Positions 20,475 through 35,694 of a stretch of DNA of 64,000 nt are shown one piece after another (position 1 is the stretch's first letter; every line of letters starts with the position of its first letter). The notes below the pieces were generated by a model. The model saw only the letters and a program-made list of their open reading frames with translations, did no database searches and was not told the DNA's origin. The stretch lies in the NCBI GenBank assembly GCA_025356475.1, contig JANXSX010000044.1, forward strand, positions 1-64,000, in the 5' to 3' direction. This DNA comes from Isosphaeraceae bacterium. Its GTDB lineage: Bacteria > Planctomycetota > Planctomycetia > Isosphaerales > Isosphaeraceae. The translations under genes and the position numbers were made by a program.

Positions 20475-20816
20475 AGTCGCCCCGCAGCCCTGACGCGGTC
20501 TGTTTCCTATACCGAAGGTCGGGACGTTGGAAAGGAAGCGAAGCCCCACGCCGATCGCCCAGACTGCCCCGAACTGGACTTGGATTCACCGCGAATCTGA
20601 TAAAAAATCGCCTGTTTGACATTGCTTGGTCGAGTTCTCGGGCTCCGATTGACAAAATCTGGCGATCTGCGATAACTCGCAACGCAGGATGCGGCAGATC
20701 TCGTCGTCCCATGGATGGGGCGGTTCCAGCGAGGTCTCACCCGACGTCCGATCCTCGAAACTTCGACGCCGACTCCCAGGGAACAGATCCCTGATGTGTG
20801 GCCGGGAGGCGAGTTG
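20475..20816. other. Leader region of the flagellar operon
   Basis: About 340 bases precede fliF. It contains a sigma-70-like promoter candidate (20649-20676) and a long untranslated leader. No sigma-28 consensus (TAAA and GCCGATAA) was seen. Confidence 0.45.
20649..20676 (+). promoter_or_regulatory. Candidate promoter of the fliF operon
   Basis: A perfect -35 (TTGACA) is followed after 16 bases by GATAAC as -10. Transcription would begin about 130 bases before fliF. A second TTGACA at 20616 has no partner -10. Confidence 0.4.
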
Positions 20817-22301
20817 ATGCGGACCGAGAGCCCCGACTCCCCCCGTTCGGCGTTCGATCGTATGAGATCGCGATTCGCCCAGTTCGGCACATGGCTAGCC
20901 GATCGCCCCTACCAAGCGCGATGGGGGCTGGGCATCGGTGCCGTCGTGATCATCGCGGCGCTCATCTATCTAGCGATCCCGACCGAACCGACCACTATCG
21001 CCTGGCTCGAGAGTGGCAAAGCATTTTCCGGTGAGCACTATGCCTCGGTCGTCAAGGCCCTTGCCTCCGAGGGGATCATCTATCGGCGCGATGGACAGGG
21101 TCGAATCGGTGTGGCGGCTGAGAAACTCCGGGAGGCGCAGACAGCGCTCACGAAACACAAGGTCAAGATCGACACCGTCAATACCCTCTTCGAGATTGAA
21201 CGCGACGTCTTGATCATGGACGGACCCGCAGAACGCGAGCAACGTTCACGAGGATCTACTGAGAAGTCGCTCCAAGCAATGATTGAAGATATTGATAATT
21301 CGGGTATCGAAACCGCAAGCGTGAAGATTCATCGGATCGTAGACCGGGTCGGTATCCGACCACAAACCAATGTTAGTGTCACTGTTTATGTGACGACCCA
21401 GAACAAGCGGAGTTTGAGCGGCGAGACCGTTCAGGCAATTCAAGCGTTCTCCCGGCTGATGATCCCTGAGTTGAAGCCGACTGCGGTCAATCTGGTCGAT
21501 CGCCAAGGACGTGAATACCTATCCTCTAAGAATCCCACCGCTGAGGTGATGTCACTCACCAAAGCGCGTGAGGAGAAGCTCAGCGATGGAATCGCCGAGA
21601 AGCTCGACTTCATCCCAGGCGTGAAAGTCACAGTCCGGATTGATCCACCGCCGGCCCCCATTCCAACGGTAGCCATCAAGTCCGTCCTGCCGCCCGAGCC
21701 CTTCGTTCGGCCCAATCATCCGATCGAGATTACCCCACCCGGAGCGGCGGATTCGGTCGGTTCAATGCCGCCGCAACTGGTCGAGATGACCGCGATGCCG
21801 CAGGGCAAAGCCCGGGTCTTGGTGCAAGTTCCTCGTAGCTTCTATCTCCGAGAGTTCCGCGCAGCCAATCGTCGCGATCCGTCACCAGAGGATCTCGGAC
21901 CTTACATCAATAAGATTCGACTGCTGGTGGATTCGGCAGTATCGATGATGTTTGCTCCCAAAGAAGGGGATGTACACATCGATATGATTCCCGACGAAAT
22001 CGAGCCCTTGCTCGCTACGGGTCTGACTGCGGCTTCGGACGAGCGCCGGGTGGCTCCATGGTGGTTGCCGGTTGGAGCGATGGTGGCGGCTGGGCTGGTT
22101 TTGTCGTTCGCGGCAGTTGGGGCCAGAAGCTTACGTCGTCCGGCATTACGATCAATCGTTCCGGCTCCCCATGCCCGATTCGACGCGGCCGAGATCGCGG
22201 GACCTGGACCTTCGGAACGAGTCCGCGACCTGATCCGCCGTAACCCGACCGCTGCTGCCGGAGTCCTCCAACGCTGGATTGGTCAAGGAGGGCGCGGCTG
22301 A
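20817..22301 (+). CDS. fliF: Flagellar MS-ring protein FliF
   Basis: FliF forms the membrane ring that carries the export gate and C ring. The 494-residue protein has a first span (GLGIGAVVIIAALIYLAI), periplasmic ring-building domains of the YscJ/FliF type and a second span (WWLPVGAMVAAGLVLSFAAV). A cytoplasmic tail ends with RVRDLIRRNPTAAAGVLQRWIG, the usual helix that binds the N-terminal domain of FliG. It is somewhat shorter than typical FliF (about 550). ATG 20817 follows GGGAGGCGAG and is chosen over an upstream in-frame start. Its stop overlaps the next gene (TGATG). Confidence 0.9.
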   Translation: MRTESPDSPRSAFDRMRSRFAQFGTWLADRPYQARWGLGIGAVVIIAALIYLAIPTEPTTIAWLESGKAFSGEHYASVVKALASEGIIYRRDGQGRIGVAAEKLREAQTALTKHKVKIDTVNTLFEIERDVLIMDGPAEREQRSRGSTEKSLQAMIEDIDNSGIETASVKIHRIVDRVGIRPQTNVSVTVYVTTQNKRSLSGETVQAIQAFSRLMIPELKPTAVNLVDRQGREYLSSKNPTAEVMSLTKAREEKLSDGIAEKLDFIPGVKVTVRIDPPPAPIPTVAIKSVLPPEPFVRPNHPIEITPPGAADSVGSMPPQLVEMTAMPQGKARVLVQVPRSFYLREFRAANRRDPSPEDLGPYINKIRLLVDSAVSMMFAPKEGDVHIDMIPDEIEPLLATGLTAASDERRVAPWWLPVGAMVAAGLVLSFAAVGARSLRRPALRSIVPAPHARFDAAEIAGPGPSERVRDLIRRNPTAAAGVLQRWIGQGGRG

Positions 22302-22849
22302 TGAGTGCGACGACGGAATCCATCGCGAGCGAGAACACATCCGCAGTAACCTCGCCCCTGCGCAAAGCGGCCATACTACTGGTAAGTTTGGAGCAACCGC
22401 TGGCATCGCAACTGCTTGCCCAACTCGATCGATCGGCAGTCGAGGCGGTGACACTCGAGATCGCCCGACTTGATCGGATCGCTCCGACCGAACAACACTC
22501 CGTTCTTGAGGAATTTTACGGCTTGGGTTTGCGACGTCTGCGATTTGTCTTCGATGATCTTGTGAAGATGGACGATAAAGTGATTCGGGATGTGTACCAC
22601 GACGAAGACTCACGCGCCTGGGCACTTGCCCTTGCGAGTGCATCTCGACCGGTACGCGATAAGGTGTTGAATGCCCTGTCGGTCAGCTCTTCGGAGTCTC
22701 TCAACAGGACACTCAATCACCTCGGCCCTTTTCGGCTGGATGACGCTGAAGCGGCTCAGGCCGACCTGGCCGAGCGACTTCGACGGCTCCATGACCATGG
22801 CCAACTCACCCTACCCGACCCCGAAGGTCAGGAGGCCATCCTTGTCTGA
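22301..22849 (+). CDS. fliG: Compact FliG-like protein: FliG N domain joined directly to a C domain
   Basis: FliG links the MS ring to the rotor and stator. This protein has only 182 residues, against about 335 normally. Residues 18-78 (LRKAAILLVSLEQPLASQLL to VLEEFY) match the FliF-binding N domain. From about residue 84 (FVFDDLVKMDDKVIRDVY) it matches the C-terminal torque domain; the middle domain with its EHPQ FliM-binding motif is missing. By hand alignment to E. coli FliG, the torque-helix residues K264, R281, D288 and D289 are Ala, Ser, Arg and Thr, and only R297 is kept. A strong AAGGAGGG RBS precedes it. A second FliG-like gene follows. Confidence 0.8.
   Translation: MSATTESIASENTSAVTSPLRKAAILLVSLEQPLASQLLAQLDRSAVEAVTLEIARLDRIAPTEQHSVLEEFYGLGLRRLRFVFDDLVKMDDKVIRDVYHDEDSRAWALALASASRPVRDKVLNALSVSSSESLNRTLNHLGPFRLDDAEAAQADLAERLRRLHDHGQLTLPDPEGQEAILV
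22830..22835 (+). promoter_or_regulatory. RBS that fixes a TTG start for the second FliG-like gene
   Basis: A perfect AGGAGG inside the end of the first fliG-like gene lies six bases before TTG 22842. ATG 22791 lies upstream of it and has no comparable RBS. Confidence 0.75.
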
Positions 22850-23150
22850 CCTCGTCGATTTTGAAGATCTCAACCAGCTCGACGGCGGCGACCTTCGCGC
22901 TGTTTTCGATCAGGTTGAAGAGCCTCTGGTGCTTGACGCACTCGTTGGCTCATCTGTCAACCTGCGGCAGCGGCTCCTGACGACATTGCCGCGAGCCTCG
23001 GCCCAACGGATCGAAGATCACCTCATTACGCACCGTGTGGTCACGTTCGAGATGGCGTTTGCCGCCCAGCGAACGGTGGTCGAGACCATGTGCCGGCTCA
23101 GTCGAGCCGGTATCGTGGCCTTCGATGACCCTGCGGATATGGTCGCATAG
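22842..23150 (+). CDS. Second FliG C-domain-like protein
   Basis: This 102-residue protein starts at TTG inside the end of the preceding gene (8-base overlap) and is led by AGGAGG. DFEDLNQLDGGDLRAVFDQV and the following helices (LRQRLLTTLPRASAQRIEDHL, VVETMCRLSRAGIVAF) align with the FliG C-terminal domain over its whole length, so it looks like a free-standing duplicate. In hand alignment to E. coli FliG, K264 becomes Val, R281 Ala, D289 His and R297 Thr; D288 alone is kept. It may form part of a split or modified C ring. It is not a frameshifted tail of the first gene, because that gene already has its own C domain. Confidence 0.68.
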   Translation: MSDLVDFEDLNQLDGGDLRAVFDQVEEPLVLDALVGSSVNLRQRLLTTLPRASAQRIEDHLITHRVVTFEMAFAAQRTVVETMCRLSRAGIVAFDDPADMVA

Positions 23151-23204: not shown

Positions 23205-23678
23205 ATGTGCCGCTGGATGCCAGGCACTGGATGGTTCAACGACCAAAGGCGCTGGACGAGAGCTTTGGGCTGCTGGGGGTTGGGATTTGTCCTGATCACC
23301 GCAGTCCCAGTTCTGGCCCAAGGTCCGGACCAATCCGCGAATCCACAACGATTGACAATTTCACCTCCCTCGGGGAGGCACAGCGTATTGGCCAGTCCGG
23401 GGTCGTCCTCGACCGGTTGGTGGGCAGGAACGGCCGGCATGACGCTCGCACTTGCAGCCTTCGGCGGCGTGAGTCTGGCGGTAAAGCGTTGGGGTGTGCC
23501 CAGCGTCGGTGAACCGGCACTTCTTCGCGTTGTCAGTCGTACATCTCTGTCACCCCGACACTCCGTTTATGTCGTCAAAGTTGAAAACCGAACCCTCCTG
23601 ATCGGTACTGGCCCCCAGGGTCCTCCGTCAATTCTGGCCGAACTCGCCGCCGCCGACGATCCAGGGGGGGCAGAATAA
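23205..23678 (+). CDS. fliO: Flagellar export protein FliO
   Basis: FliO helps FliP assemble into the export gate. The 157-residue protein has a signal-like first segment, a membrane span (WWAGTAGMTLALAAFGGVSL) and the typical cytoplasmic tail LLRVVSRTSLSPRHSVYVVKVENRTLLIG, matching the FliO pattern of Leu-basic-Ser-Leu, hydrophobic strand and LLIG. Low conservation is normal in this family. Its place between fliG and fliP supports the call. The stop overlaps the fliP start (TAATG). Confidence 0.82.
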   Translation: MCRWMPGTGWFNDQRRWTRALGCWGLGFVLITAVPVLAQGPDQSANPQRLTISPPSGRHSVLASPGSSSTGWWAGTAGMTLALAAFGGVSLAVKRWGVPSVGEPALLRVVSRTSLSPRHSVYVVKVENRTLLIGTGPQGPPSILAELAAADDPGGAE

Positions 23679-24466
23679 TGCGCTGGTTTGCCCCCCTATT
23701 CGGCATGGCAATCTTGGTTCTGATGATAGGCGCTGGCCCCGACTCATCGGCCAACAAGCCAGTTGCCGGACCGTCGCCTGTGCAGGTCGTCTCCGCAAGT
23801 CCGATCAGTCCGGACATCGCCCGAACTTTACAATCCGTCGCCATATTCTCATTAGCACCGCTCGCCGGTGCTGCTGTGCTCATGCTAACGTCCTTTGTGC
23901 GAATGAACATTGTGCTGGTCCTCTTGAGGCAAGCGTTGGGGAGTCCGCAAGTCCCCGGCAACCAAGTCCTGTCGACACTGGCACTCTTATTGACCGCGAT
24001 CGTGATGGGTCCGGCGCTTGAGCAAGTCTACACAAAGTCGATCGAGCCCTACGCTGCGGGCAAGCTGCCTGCCCCCCAGGCGTGGGATCAAGGTGTTGGG
24101 CCGATCAAGACATTCATGCTCACTCAGATCATCAGAACGAAACATGAAGACTACCTCTGGGCCATGTACCACCAGATTGAGCCCCCGAGTCCAGGGCGCG
24201 CGGAACCTACTGAGGCAGAAGAGTTTCCCCTTCGGGCGGTCGCTCCAGCGTTCTTGATCAGCGAGCTGCAAACCGCCCTCTGGATTGGGTTCTTGATCTA
24301 TCTGCCGTTCTTGGTGATCGACCTGGTGGTGTCGGCAGTCCTTGCGGCGATGGGGTTGTTCATGCTCCCGCCTGCATTAGTGTCCATGCCGCTGAAACTG
24401 GTCCTCTTTGTACTTGCCGATGGCTGGATGCTGGTCGCCGGCATGTTGATCCGTGGATTTGCGTAG
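23678..24466 (+). CDS. fliP: Flagellar export gate protein FliP
   Basis: FliP forms the pentameric core of the export channel with FliR and FliQ. The 262-residue sequence has a signal peptide and then SFVRMNIVLVLLRQALGSPQVPGNQVLSTLALLLT, the classic first signature. The second is PAFLISELQTALWIGFLIYLPFLVIDLVVSAVL. The methionine-rich gate loop region is present (MGLFMLPPALVSMPLKLVLFVL). Length and key residues are normal, so this part of the machine appears functional. Confidence 0.95.
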   Translation: MRWFAPLFGMAILVLMIGAGPDSSANKPVAGPSPVQVVSASPISPDIARTLQSVAIFSLAPLAGAAVLMLTSFVRMNIVLVLLRQALGSPQVPGNQVLSTLALLLTAIVMGPALEQVYTKSIEPYAAGKLPAPQAWDQGVGPIKTFMLTQIIRTKHEDYLWAMYHQIEPPSPGRAEPTEAEEFPLRAVAPAFLISELQTALWIGFLIYLPFLVIDLVVSAVLAAMGLFMLPPALVSMPLKLVLFVLADGWMLVAGMLIRGFA

Positions 24467-24495: not shown

Positions 24496-24762
24496 ATGAA
24501 CACGTCACACGTCATCGACTGCTCACGCGAAGCGCTTCGGATGGCTCTCTTACTTGGTGGCCCACTTTTGGTGGTCGCCCTGGTTGTTGGGTTGTTCGTT
24601 GGCGTGATCCAGACGCTGACACAGATGCACGAACCTGTCGTTGCCATGGTTCCGCGACTGGTCGCCGTGCTGCTTGCCGCCTTATTTTCACTCCCTTGGC
24701 TGATCGGTCGTTGGGTGGCGTTTGCAGTCGACCTGATTGGTTCGATTCCCGATCGATTCTAA
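24496..24762 (+). CDS. fliQ: Flagellar export gate protein FliQ
   Basis: The 88-residue protein has two membrane helices and the FliQ pattern LLLGGPLLVVALVVGLFVGVIQTLTQMHE, followed by VPRLVAVLLAALFSLPWLIGRWV. It packs around the FliP/FliR core of the export gate. Length is normal. It lies 29 bases after fliP. Confidence 0.93.
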   Translation: MNTSHVIDCSREALRMALLLGGPLLVVALVVGLFVGVIQTLTQMHEPVVAMVPRLVAVLLAALFSLPWLIGRWVAFAVDLIGSIPDRF

Positions 24763-24784: not shown

Positions 24785-25546
24785 GTGCTGAATTTAAGTT
24801 CACTCGAAGCTTGGATTCCTTTGGTCGTCCCCGGACTTCTCTTGTTCGCACGGGTGGCCGGCATGTGCGCGACCTCTCCGGGATGGTCGACGCCTGGTCT
24901 GTCCTGGCCGATGCGGATTGTGGGGGCAGGGTGGGTTGCGTTCACCGTTTGGCCATTGGTTAGTCCTTCGTTGGTTGTGCCCGAAGGGTCGATCGTCGGC
25001 TGGGCAGTTCTTGGCGAACTGATCGCGGGCGTGACGCTCGGACTGACCGCCGGCTTGATCATCGCGGGTGCTCGGCAGGCCGGTGAGGTTGTGGGGATGC
25101 AAGCCGGCCTCTCGCCCGCAGCACTCTTCGACCCCGAGGTCGGTGATGAGTTAACACCCATGGGGCATCTGTATGGTTTGATTGCCCTTGCTGTTTTTCT
25201 GTCGCTCGACGGTCCCCTTGTGCTCGTAAGTGGCTTGGCCGAGAGCTATCAGACCTGGCCGCCGGGGGGGATTGGCGGTCCTGAAGCGGTCGCCGAGGCG
25301 TTCGCTCGCGTTGGGCAAGCCCTCACTCTGGCCGTGCGAGTTGCTGCGCCTGCGGCTTTGGCCCTGACCTTGGCTGGGGTTGCGATTGGTCTCCTCGGCC
25401 GCGCCGCGCCGTCACTGCCCCTGGTCGCCTTGTCGATGCCGATCCGGTTCATTGTTGGACTCTTAATAATCCTTGCAAGTATTACCACTCTGATATCGAC
25501 CTTGTCGTCGGCCTGGATGGTATCGGGCCTGGGATTTACGAAATAA
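24785..25546 (+). CDS. fliR: Flagellar export gate protein FliR
   Basis: FliR completes the FliP5Q4R1 gate. The 253-residue protein has six or more membrane spans and the conserved segment ARQAGEVVGMQAGLSPAALFDPE, matching the G-x-Q-G-F-A/S-x-A region of FliR. It starts with GTG, and the RBS is weak (AGAAGTAAAT region), so it may depend on coupling to fliQ 22 bases upstream. Nothing vital appears lost. Confidence 0.9.
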   Translation: MLNLSSLEAWIPLVVPGLLLFARVAGMCATSPGWSTPGLSWPMRIVGAGWVAFTVWPLVSPSLVVPEGSIVGWAVLGELIAGVTLGLTAGLIIAGARQAGEVVGMQAGLSPAALFDPEVGDELTPMGHLYGLIALAVFLSLDGPLVLVSGLAESYQTWPPGGIGGPEAVAEAFARVGQALTLAVRVAAPAALALTLAGVAIGLLGRAAPSLPLVALSMPIRFIVGLLIILASITTLISTLSSAWMVSGLGFTK

Positions 25547-25564: not shown

Positions 25565-26599
25565 ATGTCCGAGTCTGAAGATCGCACTCAAACGCCGTCG
25601 AAACACCGTCGCGATCAGGCTCGTGAGGCTGGGATTGTGGCGCATAGCCCCGAATTGACCAGCGCTGTCGGGATGCTTGTAGCCGTTGGTTTGATCGCGG
25701 TGCTCGGCGGTAGCCTGATCTCAGGCTTGGTCGAACTGATCCGCGCCCCTTTGGTCGGCACGAACGACCTCTCGGTTGGCCCACTCGAGTTCGCTTCACT
25801 GGTACGCAGCCAAGTTCTCGCCGTGGTGATCCCGCTCTTGTGCATTCTGGTCGGAGCGGCCTTCGCGGCGTTTCTGACCCATCAAGCTCAAGTGGGCGGC
25901 TTATGGGTTCCTTCGAGGATCGCGCCCGACCTATCGCGTCTTGCCTCAGGTTGGCCCGGAATGGGCGCGGGGATGTTCGACCGATTGGGCCGAGGTCTGT
26001 GGGGACTGGCCAAGGCGACGATCGTCGGGGCGGTAGCGGCCTGGGTCATCACGAGTCGCTGGACGGAATTTCAGACATTGGGACGTTTGGATTCCACGTC
26101 GATAACACAAGTGTGTGGCGCGGCAGTGCGAGCACTGGCGGGCTGGTTGGCCTTGTCCATCGTCGTTCTCGGCCTGATCGACTTTGCGATCCAATACGCA
26201 CGGATTGAGTCTCGACTCCGCATGACTCCTGAAGAGTCGCGAGAAGATCTTCGATCGAACGATGGCGACCCCGCCCTCCGAGCCCGCCGCCGCAAGCTCG
26301 CCCAGGGTTGGCGTGCGGACCCTGCCGAAGCTTTGGTCGGAGCCTCCTTGGTCATCGCCGGCGTGGGGGGCCTGACCGTGGTCTTGGGCGGAGGTCCACC
26401 CCCAAAGCTGATCACCTTTCGGGCCATCGCCAAGGGATCAGCGGGGCGTCGCATGAGGCAAGCTGCCGAGACGTCGGGGGTCCTCCTTCATGATGGTCCC
26501 GAACTTGCCAACCAACTCGCTTTACGACGGATGCCGGGCCAGCCGATGCCGATCGAGGTCGCTCGCGAGTTGTCCGCAATTTGGCCACCCGCCATTTGA
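25565..26599 (+). CDS. flhB: Flagellar export switch protein FlhB lacking the NPTH cleavage motif
   Basis: FlhB is the export-gate protein that normally cuts itself at Asn-Pro-Thr-His to switch from hook to filament substrates. This 344-residue protein starts typically (SESEDRTQTPSKHRRDQAREAG), has four spans and keeps the linker EDLRSNDGDPALRARRR. At the cleavage site it reads LVIAGVGGLTVVL, so residues 266-269 are GVGG instead of NPTH. The rest of the C domain (FRAIAKGSAGRRMRQAAETSGVLLHDGPELANQL) still aligns. The protein should therefore not self-cleave. It is the last gene of the operon. Confidence 0.9.
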   Translation: MSESEDRTQTPSKHRRDQAREAGIVAHSPELTSAVGMLVAVGLIAVLGGSLISGLVELIRAPLVGTNDLSVGPLEFASLVRSQVLAVVIPLLCILVGAAFAAFLTHQAQVGGLWVPSRIAPDLSRLASGWPGMGAGMFDRLGRGLWGLAKATIVGAVAAWVITSRWTEFQTLGRLDSTSITQVCGAAVRALAGWLALSIVVLGLIDFAIQYARIESRLRMTPEESREDLRSNDGDPALRARRRKLAQGWRADPAEALVGASLVIAGVGGLTVVLGGGPPPKLITFRAIAKGSAGRRMRQAAETSGVLLHDGPELANQLALRRMPGQPMPIEVARELSAIWPPAI

Positions 26600-30347: not shown

Positions 30348-31124
30348 TCAGGTACCGAACTCGGGCCTGCGGGCTGAGAGTTGGCCCTGGAGCCGCGTGA
30401 TGATTGAGGAGTGCATCTGGGAGACCCGCGACTCGCTCAGGTCGAGCGTAGCGCCGATCTCTTTCATGGTCAACTCTTCATAATAGTAGAGGATGATGAT
30501 CAACCGCTCGTTGCGGTTCAAACCTTTCGTCACCATACGCATCAGATCTTTGCGCTGGAGACGTTTGGTGGGATCTTCACCTTTTTTATCTTCAAGAATG
30601 TCGATTTCGCGAACATCCTTGTAACTATCTGTCTCATACCATTTTTTGTTCAGACTAATCAGTCCGACAGCGTTGGCGTCGGAGGCCATTTTTTCGTATT
30701 CAGACAGGGGCAGGCCGAGGCGTTCGGCGAGCTCACCGTCGGTTGGGGGCCGGCCATGCTGGGCTTCGAGGCTCTTACGGGCCTCTTCCATCTTGGTGTG
30801 CTTGGAGCGCACCAGGCGTGGCACCCAGTCCATGGTTCGCAATTCGTCGAGCATGGCTCCGCGGATTCGAGGGACGCAGTATGTCTCGAACTTGACGCCA
30901 CGCGTCAGGTCGAAGGCATCGATCGCATCCATCAGTCCGAAGACACCCGCACTGATCAGGTCGTCGAGATCGACTCCCTCGGGAAGGCGCTGCCAGATTC
31001 GCTCGGCGTTGTACTTGACCAATGGCAAGTACCGTTCGACCAGGCGATTCCGCAGGGGCGTGGTGGGCTGTTCCTTGAACTCCCGCCAGAGTTCGGTCAC
31101 ATCCACGTCCAACTTGGTTGACAT
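30348..31124 (-). CDS. fliA: Flagellar-type sigma factor FliA (sigma-28/WhiG family)
   Basis: The 258-residue sigma factor directs RNA polymerase to late flagellar or related promoters. Region 2 (VKYNAERIWQRLPEGVDLDDLISAGVFGLMDAID, VKFETYCVPRIRGAMLDELR) and region 4 (ERLIIILYYYEELTMKEIGATLDLSESRVSQMHS) are complete, and WVPRLVRSK is typical of FliA. ATG 31124 has GGAGG five bases upstream and is chosen over an earlier in-frame ATG. It is last in the flhA-flhF-flhG-fliA series, after a 255-base gap. No FlgM-type anti-sigma gene is visible. Confidence 0.88.
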   Translation of the reverse strand: MSTKLDVDVTELWREFKEQPTTPLRNRLVERYLPLVKYNAERIWQRLPEGVDLDDLISAGVFGLMDAIDAFDLTRGVKFETYCVPRIRGAMLDELRTMDWVPRLVRSKHTKMEEARKSLEAQHGRPPTDGELAERLGLPLSEYEKMASDANAVGLISLNKKWYETDSYKDVREIDILEDKKGEDPTKRLQRKDLMRMVTKGLNRNERLIIILYYYEELTMKEIGATLDLSESRVSQMHSSIITRLQGQLSARRPEFGT

Positions 31125-31379
31125 CCAGACCTCCATGTCCGGCAGCAAGGGGATATCACTTCCTGTGAAAAGCGGGGGGTCGCTCGCATCAAAGATGCTG
31201 ACCTATCAACAGCCACGTCGCCATTGAGCCGTTCGGCCCGCTGGTCGTCGGGGGCCGTACCCCTCGCTATTTTCCCCTCGCGGTCCAAGGAACTCGTGAC
31301 TTACTTAGATATCGGATAACCGACCCATTCGACTTGAGTCGCAAAGCCGAACAATTCGGCACAACCGGCAAATTCGTTC

Positions 31380-32306
31380 TCAGCGACCGACTTGTTCGAG
31401 TGCCCACCGCGCACGGAGCGTGGTGAAGAACCCTGGCCGTCTCGCTCGAGAACCTCGCTCATCGGTCAAGATGCCGGCAAGCCGGCGTGTCGATCGAGAA
31501 GCCAGACCATTTGGTGCTTCAATGAGGTAGGGGCGTCGGGCCCGCACCGCGTCTGGAACACCAAGATCATGACGGATATAGCCGAGTGGCTCGACCACCA
31601 TACCAAGGAACTCGCGACTTGTCGCCGTGATTCGTGACAAGAGCTCGGAGCCCTCGACGTCAGTCCGCGCCTGGTTGACCAGAATGCGGAGCATCGGTGG
31701 ATGTGGTAAGCGCCGGAATCGTCCGATCGCGGCGTGGGCATCCGCAGTGGATGTCGGCTCGGGCGTCGTGACCACCACGACTTCATCAGCCGCAGCGGCC
31801 AATGTCGCGATGGCCGATCCAAGCCCGCTACCGGCATCAATGATCACGTGATCGGATTCCGCCTCAAGTGCGGCGAGACCAGCAGCGAGCCGGGCTGGCC
31901 CATCGGCCAATACCTCGACCAGCGTCCGCATTCCGTGCGCACCTGGAACGATCTTGATCCCTGCCGGACCGTCGACAATCGCGGATTCGAGGGGGCAATC
32001 GCCCACCAGAACGTCGCCAAGGTCACAGCGAGGAGCCAGCCCGCACAACAGGTCGATATTGGCGAGACCAAGATCGGCGTCGACCAGCAGGACGCGACGT
32101 CCCAACTCTCCCAGCGCGATTGCCAGGTTGAGGGCCACGTTCGATGTGCCGACGCCTCCCTTGCCGCTCGTGAACAGCAAAGATCGGGCCTTGGTCTTCG
32201 GTCGTGGAGGTTCAGGCTGAGCTGGTCGTGGAGGTGGATCGGCCAGCCCGGTACTTCCCGAGCGTGCCTGGACCCATTGTCGTAATCCGTCGGCTTGGTC
32301 GGGCAT
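31380..32306 (-). CDS. flhG: FlhG/FleN-type MinD-like ATPase with altered P-loop
   Basis: FlhG controls flagellar number and stimulates the GTPase FlhF. The 308-residue protein starts with the activator motif DQADGLRQ (DQAxxLR). It has the MinD-like signatures LLVDADLGLANIDLLCGL and HVIIDAGSGL. In the P-loop it reads GKGGVGTSNVALN, so the invariant lysine of GKT/GKS is Thr54 (ACA); an AAA-to-ACA change explains it. ATP hydrolysis is probably impaired, while the FlhF-activating N terminus is kept. GGGGAG precedes the chosen ATG. Confidence 0.85.
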   Translation of the reverse strand: MPDQADGLRQWVQARSGSTGLADPPPRPAQPEPPRPKTKARSLLFTSGKGGVGTSNVALNLAIALGELGRRVLLVDADLGLANIDLLCGLAPRCDLGDVLVGDCPLESAIVDGPAGIKIVPGAHGMRTLVEVLADGPARLAAGLAALEAESDHVIIDAGSGLGSAIATLAAAADEVVVVTTPEPTSTADAHAAIGRFRRLPHPPMLRILVNQARTDVEGSELLSRITATSREFLGMVVEPLGYIRHDLGVPDAVRARRPYLIEAPNGLASRSTRRLAGILTDERGSRARRPGFFTTLRARWALEQVGR

Positions 32307-32381
32307 ACTTGCTCCCCTCTGGATCAGTCGTGAATGATGGCGATGACGTGACATTCTCTCAGAATATGATGCGTATGACCG

Positions 32382-33509
32382 TTATTGAACAACCTCATGA
32401 CCTAAGATCAAACGTGCTAATCTCGCCCGATTCGCAGGCTCAATATCGTCGGGAACCGCCTGGCCCGTCGTCAAGTAACTTACAGGTCGATCCGCATGAC
32501 CAAGTACGGAAAGCACCCCGCCCAGGCCGTCGGCTTCATCCAGCTTGGTCAGGATCAACCGATCCGCGCGGACGATGCTGAACCGTTCGACGGCTGCCCG
32601 GAGACTTCGCTCGCCAGCAACCGCACTTAATACGAGGTGGGTCTCATCGGGACGAACCGCGCTCAAGAAGTCGGCAAGCTCACGGATCTTGACCTCATCA
32701 CGCGGGCTACGTCCTGCGGTGTCAATCAGTACGAGATCGACATCCCCAAGCTCTTCGATCGCCCTGCGCATCTCTCCAGGGGCGTTCGCGACAGCCAGAG
32801 GTAAATCGATGATCTCGGCATACGTTCGCAACTGTTCGACTGCAGCGATCCGATAGGTATCGACCGTCACCAGGCCTGTTCGCAGACCATGAGCCAGTTT
32901 GAAGTTCGCGGCCAGCTTCGCCACTGTGGTCGTTTTACCGACGCCTGTGGGACCGACCAGGGCGACAACTCGTCGTGTACCGGGCACCACAGCGATCGGT
33001 GGAGCGATTGGTACGCACCCTTCCACCGCGTCGCACAAGGCGAGCCGGACAGCCTCAGGTCGGGCGAATTCCTCGGGTTCGAGCCGCTCGGCAACGTGGC
33101 GGACCAGTCGTCGTGCGAGAGCCTCGGGGACTTCCGCTTCGAGCAAGTTCGCATAGGTTGGGACGAGCTCTGCGGGTAACTCGGGGAGCAAGTGATCGAT
33201 GCGTCCCTGGCGGCTCAGATCTTCAACCATCGCGTGGAGCCGGCTCAGTTGGTCTCCGAACGAGGCCTGGAAGTTACTGACCGGCGAGATGATGGGGACG
33301 GAGACAGTCGGTGTGTTGGTGGAGGCCGAGGACATTGCGTTGTCAGTCGCGGTGACCTCGACCAATTCGCGGGTGCCCAGGCCGAGGAATCTTCGACGGC
33401 GGACCTCACGCGTGCCGAGGATTACCGCACCTCCGCCCAGGTCCCGCCGGACCTGCGTCAGGGCTTCCTTGAGAGTCGCGGCTCGGTAAGTTCGGGGGTT
33501 CGCGGGCAT
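32382..33509 (-). CDS. flhF: SRP-type GTPase FlhF
   Basis: FlhF marks the site of flagellar assembly at the membrane. The 375-residue protein has a basic N-terminal region (PANPRTYRAATLKEALTQVRRDLGGGAVILGTREV) and a middle linker. The SRP-type NG domain shows GPTGVGKTTTVAKLAA, VDTYRIAAVEQLRTYA, LIDTAGRS and LTKLDEADGLGG. All GTP-binding motifs appear intact. It lies 52 bases after flhA and 75 before flhG. Confidence 0.93.
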   Translation of the reverse strand: MPANPRTYRAATLKEALTQVRRDLGGGAVILGTREVRRRRFLGLGTRELVEVTATDNAMSSASTNTPTVSVPIISPVSNFQASFGDQLSRLHAMVEDLSRQGRIDHLLPELPAELVPTYANLLEAEVPEALARRLVRHVAERLEPEEFARPEAVRLALCDAVEGCVPIAPPIAVVPGTRRVVALVGPTGVGKTTTVAKLAANFKLAHGLRTGLVTVDTYRIAAVEQLRTYAEIIDLPLAVANAPGEMRRAIEELGDVDLVLIDTAGRSPRDEVKIRELADFLSAVRPDETHLVLSAVAGERSLRAAVERFSIVRADRLILTKLDEADGLGGVLSVLGHADRPVSYLTTGQAVPDDIEPANRARLARLILGHEVVQ

Positions 33510-33561: not shown

Positions 33562-35694
33562 TTAGCCGATTGTCACAGCGGTACTCATATTATTGACTGT
33601 CTGACTTTCATCCTCAATGACGAGGCCAACGGTCTCGACCGGGGTATCGCGAGGAATCTCGCGCTGGCTGAGGACGACGAGTCGGTGCAGATCGGCACGG
33701 GTGAGATCCTTGAGAACGGGTCTCGCCTCAGGCGAGCAGAGAACGATCGGCGGGTGGCCTTCCTCAATGAGTGGCTCGACCGCGTGGGCCACGGCCCGGA
33801 TCAAAGCGCGGGTCGCCTCCGCGCCAAGTAGAGCTGAGGGACGGGTTTCCGACTGACCACCGATCGCCATCAACTTCAAGTCGAGCGACCTGGGGATGCT
33901 GATCACACGAAGATGACCATCTGTGCCGAGGTAACTTTGGGTGATTCGCCTGGCGAGGCCTCGCCTTACGTGTTCGGTCAAGGCGTCGGTATCACGGGTC
34001 CGGCTTGCCTCCATCGCGAGGGTTTCCAGAATCGTTTCCAGGTCACGGATACTGACCCGCTCCCGGAGTAGATTCTGCAAGACCCGCTGGACTTCACCGG
34101 CGCGGAGCAGGCCTGGGATAACTTCGTCAACCAGGGTAGGGGAGGTGGTCCTGACCCGATCGAGCAGCCTCCCCACCTGTTCACGTGTCATGAGTTCATC
34201 GACATGCGAGAGGACGATTTCGGCGAAGTGCCCCGCGACGACTGCGGATGCTTCGAGCACTCGGCAACCTGCGAGTTCAGCCACTTCGCGACCGTCAGCA
34301 TGAATCCAGACCGCTGGCTGGCCTGAGACCGGCTCAACGCCGTCTCGCCCGGTCGGTTGTGAGACCAATCCTTGGGGAGGAATTGCCAGAAGGCGACCGG
34401 CGTAGGCAACCCCTTGGCCCACGACTGCGCCTCGGATCTTCAAGCGGTAGTCATGAGGTCCCAAGCCGATCTCATCGCGAATTCGTACTTGGGGCACGAT
34501 CACGCCAAGATCGCGAGCGACCCGCTGTCGAATCGATCGAAGTCGTTCGAGCAGGTCACCTCCCCGGGTCGGCTCGGCGAGCGAGATCAGGCGATAGCCG
34601 ATCTCAAGCTCGAGCGGATCGACCTGGAGGAGATCCTCCATACGGTCAACGGGAACTTCCTTCGCTTCCTGGACGCTCGCTTCGTGCTCCGGACGCACGC
34701 TTGCAGTCCGCTTACGCGTTGCGAGAACGTAGGAGCCTGTCCCTAACGCAGCCGCAAGGGTCAAGAGCGGGGCTTTGGGGAGTTCGGTCAAAGAAAGCAG
34801 GACAAGGAAGACGGCCGCAGCGCCTAAGACCTCGGGTCGACCGAAGAGTTGGCTCGTCACATCCTTGCCGAGATCGCTCTCCGACGAGGACCGAGTCACG
34901 ATCAAGCCTGCTGCAAGTGAGATCAGGAAGGCAGGCACCTGACTGACAAGGCCATCACCGATGGTGAGCTTGGTGAAGATCTCGACTGCTTCGCCGATGT
35001 TCATCCCGTGGACGACGATCCCCATATAGAGGCCGCCGAGAATGTTCACAAAGGTGATCGCGACACCTGCCACGGCGTCACCTCGGACGAATTTCCCAGC
35101 CCCGTCCATTGCTCCGAAGTAGTCGGCCTGACGATAGACCAGGTCGCGACGTCGGGCGGCTTCGTGTCCGTCGATGATATTCGCGTGCAGGTCGGCGTCG
35201 ATCGCCATCTGGCGACCGGGGAGACCATCAAGCATAAATCGGGCCGCCACTTCGCTGATACGAGTGGCCCCTTTGGTGATCACGACGAACTGGATGACCA
35301 CGAGGATCGCGAACAAAATCGCGCCGACCACGACCTGATCACCAGCAACGAACTCGCCGAACGCCCGGATCACGCCCCCCGCCGCATCAAGGCCTTTTTC
35401 GCCCCCTTGGGTGAGGACGAGTCGGGCAGTTGCGACGTTGAGGACCAAACGCGTCAGGGTGGTTGTTAGCAGTATTGTTGGGAACGCGCTAAACTCTTGG
35501 GGGCTCTTAATCGCAAGCGTGGTCAAGAGAACGAGCACGCCGAGGGTGATGTTTGCCGAGAGCAAAATGTCGAGCGCCCAGGCCGGGACCGGAACGACGA
35601 AGACGAGGATCGCGCCGATGATTGTGATCGGTAACACCACGCCAGTCAGGCGTGAGATACCGACCGATTCGCCGATGGGCGGTGTGGGAGGCAT
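33562..35694 (-). CDS. flhA: Flagellar export gate protein FlhA
   Basis: FlhA forms the nonameric export gate that couples proton flow to export and binds substrate-chaperone complexes. The 710-residue protein has eight spans in the first half. It carries the FHIPEP signature RISEVAARFMLDGLPGRQMAIDADLHA, with Arg in place of the common Lys, and FVRGDAVAGVAITFVNILGG. The cytoplasmic C domain starts near residue 340. Length is normal. GAGGAGAGG precedes the ATG. It is the first gene of the minus-strand flagellar cluster. Confidence 0.95.
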   Translation of the reverse strand: MPPTPPIGESVGISRLTGVVLPITIIGAILVFVVPVPAWALDILLSANITLGVLVLLTTLAIKSPQEFSAFPTILLTTTLTRLVLNVATARLVLTQGGEKGLDAAGGVIRAFGEFVAGDQVVVGAILFAILVVIQFVVITKGATRISEVAARFMLDGLPGRQMAIDADLHANIIDGHEAARRRDLVYRQADYFGAMDGAGKFVRGDAVAGVAITFVNILGGLYMGIVVHGMNIGEAVEIFTKLTIGDGLVSQVPAFLISLAAGLIVTRSSSESDLGKDVTSQLFGRPEVLGAAAVFLVLLSLTELPKAPLLTLAAALGTGSYVLATRKRTASVRPEHEASVQEAKEVPVDRMEDLLQVDPLELEIGYRLISLAEPTRGGDLLERLRSIRQRVARDLGVIVPQVRIRDEIGLGPHDYRLKIRGAVVGQGVAYAGRLLAIPPQGLVSQPTGRDGVEPVSGQPAVWIHADGREVAELAGCRVLEASAVVAGHFAEIVLSHVDELMTREQVGRLLDRVRTTSPTLVDEVIPGLLRAGEVQRVLQNLLRERVSIRDLETILETLAMEASRTRDTDALTEHVRRGLARRITQSYLGTDGHLRVISIPRSLDLKLMAIGGQSETRPSALLGAEATRALIRAVAHAVEPLIEEGHPPIVLCSPEARPVLKDLTRADLHRLVVLSQREIPRDTPVETVGLVIEDESQTVNNMSTAVTIG

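Follow-up and report, generated by a model that had tools for sequence, protein, structure and literature searches.

In the flagellum, the gate part of FlhB sits on FliPQR (PMC7064499), and rod and hook subunits dock on its C domain (PMC8983047). FlhA is described as having a chaperone-binding site that includes Asp456, Phe459 and Thr490, and as depending on Arg94, Lys203, Asp208 and Asp249 for proton coupling or for its transport activity (PMC8179193). In Salmonella the FlhA changes T490M, F459A and D456V are reported to raise export in ATPase-less mutants, and T490M to lift the FliJ requirement in cells without FliH and FliI (PMC8179193). The injectisome switch protein (YscU, EscU or SctU) shares the fold of FlhB. 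Export genes are also described outside a working flagellum, as in non-flagellated Lysobacter enzymogenes, which keeps them without building one (PMC7277350), and in the non-flagellar type III secretion system of Myxococcales (PMC3459982). Isosphaeraceae species, with the exception of the gliding Isosphaera pallida, are described as non-motile (PMC12402505, PMC7716859), and a four-genome comparison speaks of a "poor representation" of flagellar assembly genes (PMC5352709). Among titles and abstract openings of open-access literature we saw no account of a switch-less FlhB or export core in planctomycetes.

The window, which is the whole stretch of 64,000 nucleotides analysed here (Isosphaeraceae bacterium, class Planctomycetia, contig JANXSX010000044.1), holds an flhB-like gene amid a partial flagellar gene set (Table 1). 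Its product resembles flagellar FlhB (TIGR00328; FliPQR-FlhB structure 6s3l) in gate part and C-domain fold, but differs in having no Asn-Pro site, in scoring 103.9 bits against TIGR00328, below the cut-off of 349.25, and in having no axial proteins to export. It likewise has the fold of the injectisome switch; however, it has no injectisome setting, its neighbours FliO, FlhF and FliA all being of the flagellar kind. L. enzymogenes differs in that FliI is present there and heterologous flagellin can still be exported (PMC7277350). Set against the description of the Myxococcales system (PMC3459982), the window system keeps FliF, FliO, FlhF, FlhG and FliA, and its family lacks the ATPase.

Table 1. 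Flagellar-type genes and FlhB features in the window.
Feature	Position	Strand	Remarks
fliF-like (MS ring)	20715..22301	+	PF01514 59.8 bits
Short FliG-like, FliG_N and FliG_C, middle domain weakly matched	22301..22849	+	PF01706 78.2 bits, PF14842 52.8 bits
Second FliG_C-type ORF, true start uncertain	22671..23150	+	PF01706 39.4 bits
fliO-like	23205..23678	+	PF04347 32.5 bits; TIGR03500 41.1
fliP (export gate)	23678..24466	+	PF00813 211.4 bits
fliQ (export gate)	24496..24762	+	TIGR01402 74.9 bits
fliR (export gate)	24785..25546	+	PF01311 159.4 bits
flhB-like gene, 344 aa	25565..26599	+	PF01312 152.5 bits; gate part and C domain without cleavage motif
Globular C domain of FlhB, from residue 260	26342..26599	+	AlphaFold2 mean pLDDT 89.3; Foldseek matches; fold retained in the model
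GVGG replacing NPT[E/H], residues 266-269	26360..26371	+	Codons ggc gtg ggg ggc
FliA/WhiG-type sigma factor	30348..31148	-	TIGR02479 268.6 bits, above cut-off 189.6
flhG-like MinD ATPase	31380..32354	-	ATPase domain recognised
flhF	32382..33509	-	TIGR03499 195.0 bits, above cut-off 174.15
flhA	33562..35694	-	PF00771 777.7 bits; R91, K201, D206, D247 kept; pocket lost (S457, G488)

Homology to PF01312 (cut-off 24.4 bits) extends over the gate part and C domain, from profile position 1 to 323 of 335, and places the window protein in the FlhB/YscU family; a profile built from it and its relatives reached solved FlhB chains at 9.2e-95. The initial annotation had reported GVGG in place of the self-cleavage motif NPTH in a C domain that aligned on both sides, and both the codons and a class-wide alignment bear this out, with ASLVIAGVGGLTVV of the window FlhB lying under ADVVVTNPTELAVA of the full FlhBs of the class, in frame on either side. 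NPTH itself proved too narrow an expectation. All 42 full FlhBs of the class in the alignment carry NPT[E/H], 24 as NPTE and 18 as NPTH, so NPTE outnumbers NPTH, and what matters is that Asn-Pro is absent. The Asn-Pro-Thr-[His/Glu] of a self-cleaving switch FlhB is absent from the window protein; reading through the translation we found no Asn-Pro pair anywhere, which leaves no motif placed elsewhere, and a PF01312 search of the whole assembly (5.92 Mb, 232 contigs, 99.98% complete) found no FlhB besides this one, with or without NPTH. Judged from its sequence, FlhB cannot cleave itself at GVGG through the known Asn-based reaction.

The AlphaFold2 model predicts the C-domain fold of a switch FlhB, a fold that tail-less relatives (see below) do not have, and puts GVGG in the turn between strands 260-265 and 271-276. 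The best Foldseek matches were FlhB of the FliPQR-FlhB complex and the C domains of YscU and EscU, mostly uncleavable mutants, but since all E-values were above 0.001 these structural matches are by themselves suggestive. We also considered FlhB P28, an ATPase-bypass position, as an indicator and found it uninformative, Ala being frequent there in flagellar FlhBs too.

FlhB was present in 38 of 45 Isosphaeraceae genomes, and in all 26 of at least 90% completeness and at most 5% contamination. No NPT[E/H] remains in any of the 37 family FlhBs aligned over the gate part (the 38th, a 90-residue fragment at a contig end, was left out), so the loss, which the initial annotation had proposed to look for across a clade, is shared throughout the family. 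The C domain is kept in 27 of the 37, with Gly in the Asn column in 25 and Asp in two, a pattern that rules out chance or a sequencing error as the source of GVGG. In the other ten it is absent from the frame, once through a contig-end cut, once through a probable frameshift and eight times in tail-less proteins, which include all four from the genus of Tautonia sociabilis; several family genera, as far as their reading frames tell, are without the entire FlhB switch domain. Mean pairwise identity in the family is 0.41 for the C part and 0.41 for the gate part, compared with 0.65 and 0.41 among NPTE FlhBs and 0.55 and 0.30 among NPTH FlhBs, and dN/dS over the aligned columns of 27 family pairs was 0.06-0.81 for the C part and 0.10-0.52 for the gate part. 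The drop in identity, taken with these ratios, shows that an extra constraint on the family C domain has gone, yet that the domain is not free.

Genes for flagellin, rod, hook and export ATPase are almost wholly missing from the family. The flagellin N-domain was detected in 0 of 45 family genomes and the rod/hook N-domain in three, as isolated matches, positive controls being detected in both searches; a profile search of the window's own genome found no rod or hook proteins. We then compared 80 genomes (reduced from 108), comprising 19 of the family, 51 others with an FlhB lacking NPT[E/H] (called no-site here) and 10 flagellated ones. Rod/hook matches occurred in 1/19, 1/51 and 10/10 of these, respectively, and FliI, by which we judged the export ATPase complex FliHIJ, in 0/19, 23/51 and 10/10, whereas FlhA was found in all 80 (19/19, 51/51 and 10/10). 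Parts of the window's flagellar set lie within 20-kb stretches of 20 family genomes, with few of these genes inside the stretches of G012, G020 and some others.

Two further alterations, of FliG and FlhG, had been proposed at the outset. That of FliG holds: positions 22301-23150 encode a 182-residue FliG_N/FliG_C protein and a FliG_C ORF in another frame, an odd split, while a full N-M-C FliG is present in two other no-site lineages (L177 and L179). That of FlhG finds no support, as the protein has a recognisable ATPase domain and an N-terminal DQADGLR that fits the FlhG motif DQAxxLR. At the methionine gate of FliP, 14 of the 29 family proteins have LFM (seven were unreadable by the pattern), where all 17 flagellar FliPs have M[MLV]M; LFM could point to another kind of gate, or to one that is failing.

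FlhA has changed in one respect and stayed the same in another. F/Y459 and T490 occur together in 10 of 10 flagellated genomes, 0 of 13 family genomes and three of nine other no-site FlhAs. The three keepers of the pocket (G220, G362 and G349) all have FliI, as do five of the six other no-site genomes without the pocket, while the sixth (G321) lacks FliI. Position 456, being D or E in 32 of 32, was uninformative. R94, K203, D208 and D249 are unchanged in 13/13 family and 9/9 other no-site FlhAs, and the window genes encode a FliPQR-FlhA gate with its proton-coupling residues. In light of the effect of T490M in Salmonella, the changed T490 of the family fits a machine without FliI; we regard the altered position 490 and the absent FliI as a suggestive pair and make no causal claim. 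Second FlhA matches comprising the cytoplasmic part alone (profile 309/314-656) were seen in three class genomes (G070:C1:5629209-5630222, G082:C1:3419256-3420281 and G237:C1:2744771-2745808).

Going by gene content and sequence, the family has lost the rod, hook, filament and export ATPase and, in all members read, the FlhB site and the late-substrate chaperone pocket of FlhA, with the proton residues invariant. The gate probably serves another, non-flagellar job. We consider it fairly probable that the window FlhB belongs to a stripped basal body (FliF, FliG-like, FliOPQR, FlhA, FlhB, FlhF, FlhG and FliA) that builds no flagellum and has been repurposed as an ATPase-less, proton-driven inner-membrane gate for non-flagellar cargo. 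The FlhB switch would have gone for want of anything to switch between, since flagellin and the export ATPase are absent from the family and rod and hook genes almost so. The remaining gate would still be assembled and would work as an ATPase-independent, proton-driven translocator for one fixed class of cargo; such a translocator would have no use for substrate switching or for either flagellar dock, and these would therefore have decayed. Alternatively the loss of the docks could reflect slow decay, the identity of the family C domain having come down to the level of the gate part. The non-switching export machine of the initial annotation accordingly stands in that no hook-to-filament switch is possible, but the family has no flagellum-building machine in which that switch could fail.

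A gate without export is conceivable, in which the MS ring, FlhA, FlhF and FlhG mark a cell site or signal (at the bud site, in gliding or with type IV pili) and the sigma factor runs unrelated genes. FlhF, FlhG and FliA do remain with the gate genes, flagellar export genes are reported to affect twitching in non-flagellated Lysobacter (PMC7277350), and a FliM/FliN-type protein occurs in 15 of 19 family genomes, beside two-component genes in the loci read; but a pure scaffold would need neither FliPQR nor invariant proton-coupling residues in FlhA, and we hold this explanation to be unlikely. The FliM/FliN C-domain was found in 31/51 other no-site and 10/10 flagellated genomes as well. The one FliM/FliN-type protein of each of the 15 family genomes lies at a distance from the export genes; in L219 (181-1365, minus strand) and L220 (5580-6854, minus strand) it is near a conserved ORF of ~290-320 residues that matches no Pfam family, and response regulators are also nearby in L219.

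Decay offers another account, in which the genes are leftovers of a lost flagellum and the FlhB motif went first as the most dispensable part. The relaxed C domain, absent in eight family members, and the scores of FliF, FliG and FlhB, far under their NCBIfam cut-offs, are what a relic would show. Against this, FlhB and FlhA are retained as counted above, FlhA with its proton-coupling residues, and dN/dS is below 1 in every comparison, including 0.07-0.27 for FlhA in seven pairs (stop-to-stop frames). Mean FlhA identity is also higher in the family (0.73/0.67) than in the flagellated sample (0.64/0.54), though the latter is taxonomically broader. The gate-core genes of the family are, on these ratios, under purifying selection, and we think a relic quite improbable.

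It is very unlikely that the genes form a structure known from elsewhere, whether the CORE that forms nanotubes or the hat-like complex of the inner membrane; both are linked to the flagellar export core, but the hat was observed in species having a full flagellar system (PMC9380563), and nothing in the present genomes points to either. An ordinary flagellum with overlooked divergent axial genes or an overlooked second FlhB is hardly credible: the PF00460 model is short, Pfam models can overlook divergent rod proteins, and isolated matches exist in G006, G018 and G043, but the flagellin, FliI and FlhB counts and the described non-motility of the species largely contradict it, and the G006 match is a FlgE-like ORF whose 6.2-kb contig belongs to a genome that is 85% complete, 5% contaminated and without a detected FlhB.

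Across the class, FlhB was found in 334 of 397 genomes. Splitting full-range from degenerate FlhBs at a Pfam E-value of 1e-60 (our choice), flagellin was detected in 216 of 232 genomes with a full-range FlhB (232 of the 233 such genomes entered the tally) versus one of 101 with a degenerate or family FlhB (69 degenerate, a few of them contig-end fragments, and 32 family). Flagellin was not detected in 16 of the full-range genomes; the exception G238 has rod genes and two FliI, and is therefore probably a dual genome. The gate part could be aligned for 161 FlhBs; NPT[E/H] is present in 42 of these, 33 have a C domain without the site and 86 have no C domain in frame. These tail-less proteins stop at median profile column 249, just past the linker helix and short of the Asn column (270). 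A frameshift or split gene was rejected as the cause, 84 of the 86 rows having no C-domain ORF nearby; the two exceptions are L013, a contig-end cut, and L030, whose C part lies in a different frame.

In a quick maximum-likelihood tree computed from FliP, FliQ, FliR and the FlhB gate part (138 of the 161 rows, 660 columns), the site-less rows join the subtree formed by site-bearing rows at 15 points, or at 11 after collapsing branches with less than 80% support and at eight with less than 95%, the tree being built on the very genes under question and some class genomes being incomplete MAGs; unordered parsimony, which allows the motif to be regained, needs six changes. Of the 36 re-searched genomes that gave at least two matches, 20, which are flagellated, hold a full FlhB alongside a tail-less one, and in the 12 dual genomes read the full copy has NPTH in every case and falls within a 14-row NPTH clade (support 0.999). 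We infer that these dual lineages swim by a second, perhaps laterally acquired flagellum, and that the older system persists in stripped form. The losses recur in the class, and the same conversion would have taken place more than once, also in genomes with a complete second flagellum. We put forward only tentatively that switch-less type III gates have arisen recurrently, in eight or more lineages of planctomycetes, the core having been freed from the flagellum, with loss of the FlhB switch domain or site and often of the FlhA pocket and ATPase too, and serving as a standing proton-driven translocator for new cargo, sometimes beside a complete second flagellum.

These genomes are a natural experiment that takes a type III exporter apart, keeping the gate and the proton-coupling residues of FlhA and dropping the self-cleaving switch, the early-substrate dock, the late-substrate chaperone pocket and the ATPase. 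They offer a clean system for asking what the gate can do without axial structures, and whether an FlhB that ends after the linker helix still works. An flhB annotation, in turn, is no proof of motility.

Next to these clusters we found neither cargo nor chaperone genes, and no conserved partner gene of a non-flagellar kind; the conserved neighbours considered as cargo (leuA, a protease and DUF1559 pilin-like proteins) were set aside as ordinary surroundings. A search for sigma-28-like promoters was negative both for the window and for 202 loci, and since flagellated loci were among these, the search pattern was possibly unsuited.

Several smaller observations were made in the class. Kinase-domain ORFs lie directly upstream of fliF in L176 and L179, with a weak match in L170, and an ORF that by eye is sulfotransferase-like lies between flhB and flhA in L177 (10775-12082, minus strand) and L179 (10985-12127, plus strand), the two belonging to different families. 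Stand-alone short FlhB C-domain matches (profile ~260-335), which we take to resemble the FlhX/YlqH type, accompany a full FlhB in G110, G179, G218, G140, G046, G055, G182, G328, G298 and G047. The no-site FlhB of L120 (genome G083) has NGMA at the site, an Asn without Pro, and this Asn-Gly might still be able to form a succinimide.
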